Source: a virus. From it: a stretch of DNA of 22,657 nucleotides. Each line of letters opens with the position of its first letter. Within the stretch, counting starts at the first letter, position 1. The notes under the pieces were generated by a model that saw only the letters and a list, made by a program, of their open reading frames with translations, ran no database searches and was not told the origin of the DNA. Below are positions 3,772 to 7,966 of the stretch, in pieces. The stretch spans positions 1 to 22,657 of the IMG/VR virus record IMGVR_UViG_3300048672_000122; one strand, written 5' to 3'. A program made the translations under genes and the position numbers.

Positions 3772-3800
3772 TTGCTATTTATTCGATATTGCAGTATATT
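3772..3800 (+). promoter_or_regulatory. Promoter of the ParB/PP-loop operon
   Basis: TTGCTA (3772-3777), a 17-base spacer and TATATT (3795-3800) form a good sigma70 promoter about 40 bases upstream of the ParB-like start. The -10 is preceded by TGCAG, so an extended -10 contact is possible. The preceding terminator makes this operon independently controlled. Confidence 0.65.
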
Positions 3801-3840
3801 TTTATTTGCAGCATTTAACTTACATAACGAGAGGGAGCAT

Positions 3841-4560
3841 ATGGAAACGATGGATTTATTTTCTAATGATGAAAATCATCAAGATCAAACAATTGGCATT
3901 ATTAAGAAACAATTAGAAATTCTCGGGTCAATGTCTGGTGACAAATTGGTATCTGCGATTAACGAATTGCGCGAGATAATTCACGGATATTCACCTTTTA
4001 ACAGCGAGCCAGTTGATTTCGTAAAATGGGTAAAAAATACTCAAGTTCACGCAAATGACTATAACCCAAACAGTGTTGCACCTCCAGAAATGGAATTGTT
4101 GAGGCTATCTATCAGTTCTGATGGTTATACGCAGCCGATTGTATCAATGCCAGATGATAATAATATGTATGAGGTTATTGATGGGTTTCATCGTCATCGT
4201 GTTGGTAAAGAGTGCGCTGATATTCAATCTCGGGTTCATGGGCATTTGCCATTAGTGCAAATTAGAGCAAGTCAGCATGACAAAAACGATCGTATGGCAG
4301 CGACAATTCGCCATAATCGTGCGCGTGGAAAACATAAAGTAGAAGCAATGTCTGACATTGTTGTTGAGCTTAAGCGTCGATTCTGGTCTGATGACAAGAT
4401 TGCCAAAGAGTTAGGCATGGAGCCTGATGAAGTTTTGCGATTGACGCAAATTACTGGTCTGTCATCTTTGTTTGAGAATGCTGCATTTTCTGAGGCATGG
4501 GAAGCAGAGTCATTTACTGATATCTCAGAAGATGACCAGGAGCTTATTCATGAAGATTAA
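3841..4560 (+). CDS. ParB/Srx-fold protein (IbrB-like), 239 aa
   Basis: Residues about 68-165 form a ParB N-terminal-type domain: N-T-Q-V-H-A-N-D-Y-N-P-N, Y-T-Q-P-I, the nucleotide-binding signature V-I-D-G-F-H-R-H-R (112-120), and R-H-N-R-A-R-G-K-H (157-165), which is characteristic of the IbrB subgroup. A C-terminal helix-turn-helix-like stretch follows (W-S-D-D-K-I-A-K-E-L-G-M, about 182-193). ParB domains bind or hydrolyse nucleotides. IbrB, with IbrA, was described as a co-activator of immunoglobulin-binding (eib) genes in E. coli, and DndB of phosphorothioation systems has a related DGQHR motif. I chose ATG 3841 because GAGGGAG precedes it. Its IbrA-type partner is two genes downstream. 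Biochemical role in phages is unknown. Confidence 0.8.
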   Translation: METMDLFSNDENHQDQTIGIIKKQLEILGSMSGDKLVSAINELREIIHGYSPFNSEPVDFVKWVKNTQVHANDYNPNSVAPPEMELLRLSISSDGYTQPIVSMPDDNNMYEVIDGFHRHRVGKECADIQSRVHGHLPLVQIRASQHDKNDRMAATIRHNRARGKHKVEAMSDIVVELKRRFWSDDKIAKELGMEPDEVLRLTQITGLSSLFENAAFSEAWEAESFTDISEDDQELIHED

Positions 4561-4948: not shown

Positions 4949-6173
4949 ACGTGGATTAGGAATGGATGTTTTAGCAGCAGCAAAACAACGCATTGAATGG
5001 ACGTTTGATAATTTTGATCGAATTTACATTAGTTTTAGTGCTGGCAAAGATTCTACTTTGATGCTTCATTTGGTTATGGACGAAGCTAAAAAGCGAAACA
5101 AAAAAATAGGCTGCCTGTTTATTGATTGGGAATGTCAAATGCGCCTGACGATTGATTTTGCAAAGCAAATGTATGATGAATATGCGGAATGGGTTGAGCC
5201 ATATTGGGTTTCGCTTCCAATGAAAACATGGAATGCTACAAGTCAATTTGAGCCAGAATGGACAGCTTGGGACGCAAACAAAAAAGATTTATGGGTTCGT
5301 CAGCCAGACAAAATTAGCATTACTGATGGATCAGTGTTCCCATTCTATTTTGAAGGAATGCCATTTGAAGAGTTTGTGCCTTGTTTTGGCGAGTGGTACG
5401 CACAAGGGAAAAAGTGCGCTGCATTTATCGGGATTAGGGCAGATGAAAGCTTAAACCGATTTCGCACAATTGCACGTGATAAACCAATGTTTGACGGAAA
5501 GCCGTGGACGACTAAAGTCATTGCTGATTGCTGGAATATTTATCCAGTTTATGATTGGAAAACAACAGATTTATGGACGTATTTTGGTAAGTTTAAAAAG
5601 CCGTATAACAAGCTTTATGACCGAATGTATCAAGCTGGTATGAAAATATCTCAAATGCGTATTTGCGAGCCATTTGGCGATGAGGCGCGAAAAGGATTGT
5701 GGCTGTATCAAGTTGTTGAGCCTGAAATGTGGGCTAAGGTTTGTTTGCGCGTTGCTGGCGCTAATACTGGCGCATTATACGCAGATGAAAAAGGCGCTGT
5801 TTTGGGCAATCATCATGTAGCATTGCCACCTAATCACACATATAAAAGCTTTGCCAATCATTTGCTTAATACGATGCCCCGACCAACAGCAGAACATTAC
5901 AAAAACAAATTGGCTGTTTATCTAAAATGGTGGTCAAAGCGCGGATATGAGGATGGAATCCCAGATAAGGCTGAACTTAGATTGGAAAGTTACGGAAAAG
6001 TTCCAAGCTGGAGGAAGATATGCAAAACAATTTTGAGAAATGATTATTGGTGCAAAGGGTTAGGATTTAGCCCAACAAAAACATCAGCGTATAAAAAGTA
6101 TGTTGAGCTTATGAAAAAACGTAGGGCTGATTGGAAAATTTACGATGACATAAAAAATCAGGAGGCAGCATGA
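4941..6173 (+). CDS. PP-loop ATPase, PAPS-reductase-like (IbrA/DUF3440 type), 410 aa
   Basis: The PP-loop S-F-S-A-G-K-D-S-T is at residues 31-39, the ATP-pyrophosphatase signature shared by PAPS reductases, DndC and tRNA-modifying enzymes. F-I-G-I-R-A-D-E-S-L-N-R-F appears near 163-175, as in PAPS-reductase relatives, and the length matches IbrA/DUF3440 proteins. No C-terminal redox Cys of assimilatory PAPS reductase is evident, so sulfate reduction as such is unlikely. Adenylation of a substrate, perhaps a nucleobase or nucleotide, is more plausible but is inference. SD GGAGA is 6-7 bases upstream of ATG 4941. It overlaps the HTH gene downstream by ATGA. Confidence 0.85.
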   Translation: MPKRGLGMDVLAAAKQRIEWTFDNFDRIYISFSAGKDSTLMLHLVMDEAKKRNKKIGCLFIDWECQMRLTIDFAKQMYDEYAEWVEPYWVSLPMKTWNATSQFEPEWTAWDANKKDLWVRQPDKISITDGSVFPFYFEGMPFEEFVPCFGEWYAQGKKCAAFIGIRADESLNRFRTIARDKPMFDGKPWTTKVIADCWNIYPVYDWKTTDLWTYFGKFKKPYNKLYDRMYQAGMKISQMRICEPFGDEARKGLWLYQVVEPEMWAKVCLRVAGANTGALYADEKGAVLGNHHVALPPNHTYKSFANHLLNTMPRPTAEHYKNKLAVYLKWWSKRGYEDGIPDKAELRLESYGKVPSWRKICKTILRNDYWCKGLGFSPTKTSAYKKYVELMKKRRADWKIYDDIKNQEAA

Positions 6174-6394
6174 AGCAACTTGAGGAACTCAGAAAGTATT
6201 TCAAGCGTAACAGCAGATTAACGCAGCATCAAGCAACTATTCAACTTGGCATTGCTAGGCTGAGTGAGCGCATCAGGGAATTAGAATCGCAGGGATGGGA
6301 GTTTGAGCATCGTCGCATTGACGCACCAACAAGATACACGCATGCAAAAGTTTGTCAGTATATTTTGTTGAAAAGACCAAAAACAGTTGTATAA
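6170..6394 (+). CDS. Small winged-HTH protein (HTH_39-like), 74 aa
   Basis: The region R-L-T-Q-H-Q-A-T-I-Q-L-G-I-A-R-L-S-E-R-I (residues 16-35), followed by R-E-L-E-S-Q-G-W-E-F, is the pattern of the phage HTH_39 domain: helix-turn-helix then a short wing. A perfect AGGAGG lies six bases before the ATG, and the start overlaps the PP-loop gene's stop. It is the last gene of the operon. Its stop codon lies inside the -10 box of the promoter at 6368-6395, so translation to the end may interfere with that promoter. It could regulate its operon or the replication genes; the target is unknown. Confidence 0.75.
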   Translation: MKQLEELRKYFKRNSRLTQHQATIQLGIARLSERIRELESQGWEFEHRRIDAPTRYTHAKVCQYILLKRPKTVV

Positions 6395-6395
6395 T
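6368..6395 (+). promoter_or_regulatory. Strong sigma70 promoter for the structured RNA
   Basis: TTGAAA (6368-6373, 5/6), a 16-base spacer and a perfect TATAAT (6390-6395) form the closest match to consensus in the window. The predicted transcription start is about 6401-6403, exactly at the beginning of the structured segment. The promoter lies inside the 3' end of the small HTH gene. Confidence 0.7.
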
Positions 6396-6400
6396 TTAAT

Positions 6401-6506
6401 CGTGGCTTTGAACGGCTAACACTTGGTGGCTTTACGCATGGGGACTCGTATCAAGCGAGCGTTCAACATCCAGAAATGGATGCCCCAGCCGTAAAGCCTT
6501 TTTTTT
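6401..6506 (+). ncRNA. Pseudoknotted small RNA or leader with terminator, about 105 nt
   Basis: From the predicted start at about 6401 the transcript folds as follows. An outer stem of nine perfect pairs joins GGCTTTACG 6428-6436 to CGTAAAGCC 6490-6498, continued by TGGGG 6439-6443 with CCCCA 6483-6487. A CTCG/CGAG hairpin (6445-6448/6456-6459) and a six-pair hairpin with a GAAA tetraloop (6467-6472/6477-6482) lie inside. The seven-base linker between them (CGTTCAA 6460-6466) is exactly complementary to TTGAACG at 6408-6414, giving a pseudoknot. Eight T (6499-6506) follow the outer stem, so it doubles as an intrinsic terminator. It may be a free small RNA or a cis-acting leader for the replication genes, whose start codon is ten bases past the T run. 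I do not recognise a known family. Confidence 0.72.
6490..6506 (+). terminator. 3' half of intrinsic terminator before the replication genes
   Basis: The descending arm of the nine-pair stem (6490-6498, paired with 6428-6436) and the T run 6499-6506. The hairpin is unusually large because two hairpins and a pseudoknot strand sit in its loop. Confidence 0.7.
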
Positions 6507-6515
6507 GGGCAAAAA

Positions 6516-7256
6516 ATGTATTACTACCAGCATCATATAGGTGACTATCGCAAAGATACGTCTCACCTTTCGCTATTGGAGCATGGCATATACCGCCAAT
6601 TGCTTGACCTTTATTACATCAACGAACAGCCATTAAGCACAGATCATGCGATTACTATGCGCTTGATATGCGTTCGCAATGCGGACGAATCAAAAGCGTA
6701 TGAAAACGTGATAAATGATTTCTTTCAAGAAAAAGAAGATGGGTTTTATCACAAAAGATGCGAAGATGAAATTGTAAAATTTCACGGTAAAAGTGAGAAA
6801 AGTAGAGAAGCTGCTAACAAAAGATGGTCAAATAATGCAAAAGACATGCGTTCGCAATGCGGACGCAATGCGGACGGTATGCCAACCAATAACCAAGAAC
6901 CAATAACCAATAACCAAGAACCAATAAAAGAACATAAGGCGCGAGCGCCTAAATATGATTTTGTTAAAAGTTTAGTTGAACTTGGTGCTGATGAAAAATC
7001 AATTCGTGATTGGCTAGAGGTTCGCAAGAAGAAACGAGCAGCAAATACTGAAAGCTCAATTGACCACTTAGTGAGAGAATCAGCAAAAGCCAATATCTCG
7101 ATTGCTGATGCCGTTTTGATTTGCGCAACACGTAACTGGCAGAACCTTACTGCTGAATGGCTACAGCCAAAGATTCAGCATCAGTCGCGGCCTGAAAAGT
7201 TTAATCCAACGGCATACGTGAATCGAAATAGAAATGTTTTGAAGGAAATAGAATGA
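6516..7256 (+). CDS. DUF1376 (YdaU-like) phage replication initiator, 246 aa
   Basis: The N-terminus M-Y-Y-Y-Q-H-H-I-G-D-Y-R-K-D-T, then L-E-H-G-I-Y-R-Q-L-L-D-L-Y-Y (residues 1-34), is the DUF1376 signature found in replication proteins of lambdoid phages and fixes the start at 6516. That start lacks a good SD (only GGGC) and lies just past a terminator. Residues 95-140 are a low-complexity linker encoded by repeats; residues about 145-220 (F-V-K-S-L-V-E-L-G-A-D-E and on) form a C-terminal helical domain of the DnaT or helicase-loader-contact kind. By position next to a P-like protein it should correspond to lambda O, recognising the origin that appears to lie inside this gene (6668-6950). 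Function by family and context. Confidence 0.82.
   Translation: MYYYQHHIGDYRKDTSHLSLLEHGIYRQLLDLYYINEQPLSTDHAITMRLICVRNADESKAYENVINDFFQEKEDGFYHKRCEDEIVKFHGKSEKSREAANKRWSNNAKDMRSQCGRNADGMPTNNQEPITNNQEPIKEHKARAPKYDFVKSLVELGADEKSIRDWLEVRKKKRAANTESSIDHLVRESAKANISIADAVLICATRNWQNLTAEWLQPKIQHQSRPEKFNPTAYVNRNRNVLKEIE
6668..6876. repeat. 20-bp repeated dyad element (2 full copies plus 1 partial)
   Basis: A perfect 20-base direct repeat occurs at 6668-6687 and 6846-6865, and its second half (CAATGCGGACG) is repeated again at 6866-6876. The core GCGTTCGCAATGCGGACGC is a near-perfect dyad (16 of 19 positions). The two full copies are read in different frames, so the conservation is at DNA level. This suggests initiator-binding sites. 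Confidence 0.7.
6885..6926. repeat. Six tandem heptamers ACCAA(T/G)A, origin iteron candidates
   Basis: Six consecutive 7-base units run from 6885 to 6926 in the order ACCAATA, ACCAAGA, ACCAATA, twice over, so the array is also a 21-base repeat encoding NNQEPI twice. A 14-base perfect palindrome AGGCGCGAGCGCCT (6937-6950) and an A+T-rich stretch follow. Iterons beside an A+T-rich segment within the initiator gene is the lambda ori plan. Confidence 0.65.
6937..6950. repeat. Perfect 14-bp palindrome beside the iterons
   Basis: AGGCGC (6937-6942), GA, GCGCCT (6945-6950). It lies between the heptamer array and an A+T-rich stretch (about 6951-6982) in the putative origin. Confidence 0.6.
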
Positions 7257-7966
7257 ACGAATTTTCAAAATGGTTTGAAGTTCATCCAAAGTTGCAAATA
7301 TCCATGATGGATCATTTGTACAACAGATTGGATGGGGCTTACCCGCACAAATGGCGATCAAACTTTCCAGACCAGGCAAGCATTGATAATTGGGCTACAT
7401 CGTGGGCAGAGACGTTTGAGGAAGAGCGCATCACATTGGAAGAAGTTGCGGCAGGGTTGAAATATTGTAGGAAGAATCTCGAGTGGCCTCCAAGCATTGC
7501 GGAATTTGTTAAGGCATGCAGACCTAGCATCAATCCTTTAACGGCTTATTACGAGGCTGTAGCTGGCTGTCAAGCGCGTCAAAGAGGTGAGGTAGGTGTA
7601 TGGTCGCACCCTGCTGTTTATTGGGCTTCTGTGCCTCTTTCTTACGATTTGCTGAGCCAATCATACTCACAGATCAAATTAAGGTGGGAAAAGTCATTTG
7701 AAGATCAAATGAACAAGGGCGAGTGGGATGAAATCAAAAAGCCACTTGTGGCATTGCCTCCGCCATCAAAAGGAAAAACGTCAAATCATGAGGCTGCAAA
7801 AACATTAAGAGATATTGGCGCGTCAGAAATTCTCACGATCAATAAATCAGATACAGCGTGGTATCGCAAGATTTTAGATCGAGTAAAAAAAGGCGATAAG
7901 ACGGTTACGCTGAGACAGCGTAAAGTTGCAGAGGAAGCAGCAAAAGAACATAGTTATCAGGCATAA
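7253..7966 (+). CDS. Lambda P-like helicase loader, 237 aa
   Basis: The region Y-P-H-K-W-R-S-N-F-P-D-Q (about 30-41), then I-D-N-W-A-T-S-W (44-51), and L-E-E-V-A-A-G-L-K-Y-C-R-K through L-E-W-P-P-S-I-A-E-F-V-K-A-C-R (about 62-90), has the spacing and key residues of phage lambda replication protein P and relatives: an aromatic W near the start, P-x-x-F-x-x-W and a P-S-x-x-x-F-x-x-x-C finish. P proteins load the host DnaB helicase at the phage origin. The C-terminal part is charged and not diagnostic. It overlaps the DUF1376 gene by ATGA, with SD AAGGA, so initiator and loader are co-translated. Confidence 0.75.
   Translation: MNEFSKWFEVHPKLQISMMDHLYNRLDGAYPHKWRSNFPDQASIDNWATSWAETFEEERITLEEVAAGLKYCRKNLEWPPSIAEFVKACRPSINPLTAYYEAVAGCQARQRGEVGVWSHPAVYWASVPLSYDLLSQSYSQIKLRWEKSFEDQMNKGEWDEIKKPLVALPPPSKGKTSNHEAAKTLRDIGASEILTINKSDTAWYRKILDRVKKGDKTVTLRQRKVAEEAAKEHSYQA

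Follow-up and report, generated by a model that had tools for sequence, protein, structure and literature searches.

What kind of RNA lies in the short gap between an HTH_39 gene and a replication initiator gene in the phage DNA analyzed here (hereafter the window, meaning the whole stretch of 22,657 nucleotides), and what might it do for the phage? The initial annotation had read this gap as a pseudoknotted RNA with its own promoter and terminator, noted a likeness to HDV-like ribozymes, and suggested either a new phage small RNA or a leader. Our analysis places the RNA in a widespread family that is absent from Rfam, which we refer to as class A, and we think it probable that this is a new family of structured phage leader RNAs controlling the replication operon in cis by transcription attenuation.

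All of the elements listed in the initial annotation are present in the window: the promoter, the 9-pair outer stem and 5-pair inner stem, the CTCG/CGAG hairpin, the GAAA-capped hairpin of 6 bp, the linker that perfectly complements a strand near the 5' end, and the eight T residues that follow the outer stem. That list had nonetheless overlooked two helices, which we call P0 and P5 (Table 1). When folded as a single sequence, the window RNA has a minimum free energy of -39.8 kcal/mol (z -4.1), a stability reached by none of 200 shuffles; in a second shuffle set, equally stable folds arose in 4 of 1,000. This single-sequence fold contains the outer (9-bp) and inner (5-bp) stems and both hairpins, and it leaves 6460-6466 unpaired. 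An exact complement of at least 7 nt between an external and an internal strand was found in 0 of 1,000 dinucleotide shuffles.

Table 1. Features of the RNA locus and its surroundings (window positions unless another locus is named).
Feature	Position	Strand	Remark
HTH_39 gene, upstream	6170..6394	+	Relatives often have a P22-type cro here
Sigma-70-type promoter, TTGAAA-16 nt-TATAAT	6368..6395	+	11 of 12 consensus bases
-35 box, TTGAAA	6368-6373	+	Followed by 16-nt spacer
-10 box, TATAAT	6390-6395	+	
Predicted transcription start	6402..6403	+	At or adjoining first base of P0; predicted from promoter profile of relatives
P0, 5' hairpin, TGGC/GCTA (6403-6406/6415-6418)	6403..6418	+	Loop is the P1 5' strand; comparative
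P1 5' strand, TTGAACG	6408..6414	+	Comparative
P5 5' strand, CTTGGT	6422..6427	+	Adjoins P2 on its 5' side; comparative
P2 5' strand (6428-6436 and 6439-6443)	6428..6443	+	Small internal loop; fold and comparative
P3 hairpin, CTCG/CGAG (6445-6448/6456-6459)	6445..6459	+	Fold and comparative
P5 3' strand, ATCAAG	6450..6455	+	Inside P3 loop; one G-U pair; comparative
P1 3' strand, CGTTCAA (J3/4)	6460..6466	+	7 nt between P3 and P4; exact complement of 6408-6414
P4 hairpin, CATCCA-GAAA-TGGATG (6467-6472/6477-6482)	6467..6482	+	GNRA loop; fold and comparative
P2 3' strand (6483-6487 and 6490-6498)	6483..6498	+	Closes terminator stem; fold and comparative
T8 tract of intrinsic terminator	6499..6506	+	SD-like region directly 3'; sequence
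Replication initiator gene, DUF1376	6516..7256	+	Primosomal/O-like
Lambda P-like helicase loader gene	7253..7966	+	
Class C RNA, L003	4757-4901		
Class C RNA, L004	1770-1910		
Class C RNA, L063	2861-3000		

Two viral contigs, L036 and L037, were found through the neighboring HTH_39 gene; their DNA is about 90% identical to that of the window up to the promoter. Downstream of the promoter, their RNA sequences are wholly different from the window's, and yet the topology is the same: P1 is formed by TTGAACG/CGTTCAA in the window, by TTGGCCG/CGGCCAA in L036, and by TTGGCGG/CCGCCAA in L037. The identity ends at 6408-6419, just past the promoter, and therefore the RNA and the initiator are swapped together, as a single cassette, while the promoter ahead of them is conserved. 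Further members came from a structural scan of loci fetched via the downstream DUF1376 gene, and a pattern derived from the lower P2 stem of diverged relatives matched at least 120 viral contigs, with about one match expected by chance according to our own estimate. We read 82 distinct sequences from the pattern matches, and our alignment (A2) comprises 66 sequences. The search pattern fixed some P2 bases and T5, so that conservation at those positions is partly by construction; P0, P1, P5, P3, and P4 were left free.

A covariance model (R2) was built from 39 pattern matches only, without the window, L007, L036, L037, and L055, and it recovered all five of these left-out members. It matched the window at 6392-6497 with 30.9 bits (E 5.9e-7, within its own record) and the other four with E values of 5e-10 to 1e-15. 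One locus that resembled a member in an early scan, L025, was dropped, as the models give it no support. Searches of Rfam at gathering and permissive thresholds (E up to 10 for the window) returned no match for the window or its diverged relatives, in agreement with the earlier remark that no known family fits. DNA and protein similarity searches in named phages likewise gave no match for the window region, such hits as occurred being chance pieces. Family representatives matched only three Manatee Spring metagenome phages, plus two weak pieces at chance level, and they had no match among plasmids. A locus in an uncultured Lachnospiraceae, the single match among genome contigs to a DUF1376 gene with an upstream T-run pattern, is not matched by the class A model and was rejected. 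We found no earlier description of this RNA in the open-licence papers that were searched.

Comparison of the relatives provides what we regard as decisive support for the predicted fold, above that given by single-sequence shuffles. For the full pseudoknotted structure across the 66 sequences, 92.9% of cells were paired, whereas shuffles reached 74.7% and slid controls 34-47%, and 506 cells were double changes compared to 161 in shuffles; the aligned sequences are related, and such cell counts are not independent events. Changes on both sides were seen in 31 of the 39 proposed pairs, with some in every helix (P0, P1, P5, P2, P3, and P4). P0 was paired in 93.9% of cells, with double changes in all four of its pairs, P1 was paired in 97.5%, and the two helix segments of P5 were paired in 92.1% and 89.0%, with double changes in all 5 pairs. 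An unguided ranking by mutual information placed P1 column pairs at ranks 1 and 2, followed by pairs from P2, P5, P0, P3, and P4. In addition, five diverged members that were folded singly each gave the same P2/P3/P4 three-way junction, with P1' unpaired between P3 and P4. The pairings put forward in the initial annotation, the 7-bp pseudoknot among them, are thus kept by compensatory change in relatives, and the covariation of P0, P1, and P5 rules out a plain terminator.

The ends of the putative transcript can also be read from the relatives. Across the 66 sequences, a -10 element lies at -12 to -7 from the first base of P0 and T is preferred at -35, and the best-scoring -10 hexamer falls 6 to 9 nt ahead of P0 in 56 of them. 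Because the -10 box keeps a constant distance from P0, we conclude that P0 is probably the 5' end of the transcript. In the window, the -10 box and the HTH_39 stop codon overlap. At the other end, a G+C-rich stem runs directly into a T-run, as in intrinsic terminators, termination itself being a prediction; our simple terminator scan admits loops of 3 to 8 nt only and does not list this one. The T8 tract is no artifact of the search pattern, since the window, L036, and L037 were all chosen without a T-run criterion and all carry it.

These features bear directly on the likeness to HDV-like ribozymes. The strand order P1-P2-P3-P1'-P4-P2' is indeed that of the nested pseudoknot in these ribozymes, with P1 nested into P2 together with P3 and P4, and a self-cleaving RNA of this kind, or a degenerate one, would account for it. 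However, in the window and its relatives P4 abuts the 3' strand of P2, and therefore the J4/2 junction and its catalytic C are absent, as the initial annotation had pointed out. The window RNA also adds P0 and P5, and its P1 strand sits in the loop of the very hairpin at which the promoter would start the RNA; a transcript that most probably begins at P0 would have hardly any upstream sequence to cleave. With no Rfam match even at E values up to 10, we reject the ribozyme reading, to which we assign a negligible probability.

Thirty phage records (17-40 kb) contain exactly one locus each, second matches being on the opposite strand at the same place, and this single copy per phage rules out a dispersed module. 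Among 81 distinct downstream reading frames, nearly all have about 9 nt (mostly 8-14) between the T-run and the start codon; distances of -2 to 2 arise where the frame has another possible start that lies earlier. Among 20 other nonredundant downstream proteins, 16 matched replication-initiation, primosomal, or DnaD-like/helicase-loader PHROGs, from several unrelated families, and the remaining 4 were one helicase, two HNH endonucleases, and one protein without a match. A downstream toxin gene, as in type III toxin-antitoxin systems, was not found, the downstream genes being mostly replication initiators. Thus, of the earlier suggestion of a new phage small RNA or leader, the new RNA is borne out, and a leader is likelier than a free-standing RNA because the RNA immediately precedes a gene that is usually the replication initiator or the first gene of the operon.

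Several observations on the genes around the RNA deserve mention in their own right. At L144, L163, L184, L204, and L217, genes for HNH or GIY-YIG endonucleases lie between the RNA and the initiator, as though homing elements had inserted right behind the leader and occupied its start site. Within the DUF1376 gene of the window (6884-6929) there are short direct repeats, ACCAATAACCAAGA-like, whose DNA is nearly identical among otherwise diverged DUF1376 genes (e.g., 42/42 nt in L008) and which resemble origin iterons inside an initiator gene, cf. lambda O. The window also encodes a ParB-like protein (phrog_2159; 3772-4560), in a record without detectable ParA or integrase.

Because the structure always adjoins a replication initiator or its operon and occurs in single copy, we considered whether it might instead take part in replication initiation itself, acting as an origin or priming element in the form of DNA or of an RNA primer. 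The promoter, the start aligned with P0, and the T-run point rather to a transcript, and the iteron-like repeats inside the DUF1376 gene are better candidates for an origin; we consider a role as origin or primer very improbable. As for the phages that carry the RNA, tyrosine integrase, serine recombinase, ParA, and S24 repressor genes were found in 0 of 30-31 carrier records, some of which are incomplete. Given the absence of these genes, and within the bounds set by incomplete records, the carriers appear to be lytic or of an unrecognized lifestyle.

Other phages have different RNAs in the same position. A second undescribed structured leader, which we refer to as class C, lies upstream of a DUF1376-type gene at L003, L004, L005, L063, L071, L073, L076, L077, L080, L082, and L119. 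It has a GCGC hairpin on its 5' side, and the loop of this hairpin pairs within a long P2 stem. The pairing of the P0 hairpin loop with P1' is the same as in class A (100% and 96% of cells paired), and the covariation of class C is well above controls. In class C, the 3' strand of P2 contains the ribosome-binding site in place of a terminator. Class C, which we call a sister on the basis of its slot and its loop pairing, is not recovered by the class A model, and the class C RNA of L004 has no match in Rfam.

RNAs of the int-alpA/C4 type were also observed directly upstream of DUF1376 (L013, 5913-5984; L024, 1918-1994; L022, 4297-4370), as well as at L006, L015, L018, L078, L079, L091, and L094. 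Among those tested, only L013 passes the Rfam cutoff, L022 and L024 falling below it. In several, including L013 and L024, the P3 loop is by eye complementary to the ribosome-binding region. One contig, L007, bears both a class A RNA (2483-2575) and an int-alpA RNA (4129-4194; RF02996, 42.8 bits), about 1.5 kb apart.

A terminator design in one form and a sister that masks the ribosome-binding site in another are the usual signature of cis-regulatory leaders, and this is our main argument for attenuation. Linkage to the downstream gene, a terminator platform, and Shine-Dalgarno sequestration in the sister form were all found here, as in riboswitch and attenuator leaders. Under this model, transcription would start at the P0 hairpin from the dedicated promoter, and the RNA would fold into the three-way junction of P2, P3, and P4, with the 7-nt J3/4 strand pairing with the P0 loop (P1) and the P3 loop pairing with the strand that enters P2 (P5). 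Transcription would then stop at the P2 stem and its run of about 8 T, some 10 nt before the replication gene's start codon, and the product would be an RNA about 105 nt long. The P0-P1 and P5 pairings would lock the P2 hairpin and stabilize the terminator, making the pseudoknotted state the OFF state. Disruption of the pseudoknot would be the switch, in which the balance may be shifted by a factor of the phage or of its host, or else by RNA that other copies supply, so that read-through allows the initiator and helicase loader to be expressed. The RNA would then probably decide whether the replication gene is switched on. The sequence evidence shows the parts on which this model is built, namely the family, its fold, the position of the promoter, the single copy, and the placement ahead of replication genes. 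However, a classical riboswitch attenuator would have a conserved competing antiterminator helix, and none stood out in the covariation table of the 66 sequences.

Alternatively, the RNA could serve as a leader for translation or stability, with the structure shielding the 5' end and the U8 tract beside the start codon offering a site for ribosomal protein S1 or a standby ribosome, in place of a terminator. Hairpins at the very first base commonly stabilize RNAs, and P0 would be one; the U8 lies 8-14 nt ahead of the start codon, and the ribosome-binding site seems to be where class C acts. Yet a stem of 14-20 bp with a G+C-rich base that passes directly into about 8 T has the textbook form of an intrinsic terminator, and we regard this alternative as quite unlikely.

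A dedicated promoter for an RNA whose transcription would mostly end early is also compatible with a small RNA acting in trans. The terminated RNA of about 105 nt could be a regulator like P4 CI RNA, C4 antisense RNA, or Gifsy IsrK, with the P0 loop pairing to the P1' strand, or to some other site, of nascent leaders from other phage copies to give copy-number feedback or RNA-based superinfection immunity. The P0 loop begins with CUUG, which conforms to YUNR, the U-turn-like sequence of antisense loops, and the core of this loop is variable, with 17 distinct loop hexamers among which matched pairing is kept. RNAs of the C4/int-alpA type, moreover, hold the same position before DUF1376 in other phages, and P4 CI RNA and IsrK provide precedents (PMC4825925). 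Pairing within one molecule nevertheless explains the covariation, and classical lysogenic immunity is unlikely because integrase, serine recombinase, ParA, and an S24-type repressor are missing in 30 of 30 records. On balance we hold a trans-acting regulator to be possible but doubtful.

The attenuator that we favor could also be part of a broader arrangement, which we offer as a speculation that is unlikely to hold in full. Phages without a recognizable repressor or integrase may use this pseudoknotted RNA family as a replication switch or copy-number governor, which would act as an attenuator in cis and, once terminated, in trans via its U-turn-like loop. Class A, class C, and C4/int-alpA RNAs, whether unrelated or distantly related, would then compete for one slot between cro and the initiator.

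Whatever the mechanism, class A adds a widespread and strongly supported RNA family at the main early decision of a phage, that of copying its genome. Since the same slot is also used by C4/int-alpA-type RNAs and by a sister in which the terminator gives way to masking of the ribosome-binding site, replication genes under RNA control may, in tailed phages, far outnumber the few cases studied (P4, P1/P7, and Gifsy). The fold, a kissing 5' hairpin joined to a three-way junction and a terminator, is small and experimentally tractable.

Among known systems, the P4 CI, C4 antisense, and int-alpA RNAs (RF01695 and RF02996) are likewise structured leaders that lie immediately before phage replication genes and have promoters of their own. 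In these RNAs, however, P1 encloses P2 and P3 and a loop is complementary to a nearby target, whereas the window RNA forms a crossed three-way junction with a terminator stem, matches neither RF01695 nor RF02996, and lacks the P1-enclosing fold with its CUAG and CGAAAAG junctions; we therefore rejected a C4 antisense or int-alpA identity. Gifsy-1 IsrK resembles it as a phage RNA that ends at its own terminator and can be read through into the downstream gene, as is predicted for the window RNA. IsrK occurs in two forms, one a terminated RNA and the other a read-through mRNA, and acts in trans on its long form, the downstream gene encoding an antirepressor, and P4 CI RNA brings about premature termination of its replication operon (PMC4825925). 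Lambda nutR/tR1 has the same position, a terminator between cro and the O and P replication genes. Termination at lambda tR1 depends on Rho and is regulated by N acting at nut, whereas in the window the terminator is intrinsic and is fused to a pseudoknotted RNA that has a promoter of its own. Class A is thus a new RNA family, and the task that it likely performs, leader-mediated control of a phage operon, belongs to a known kind.
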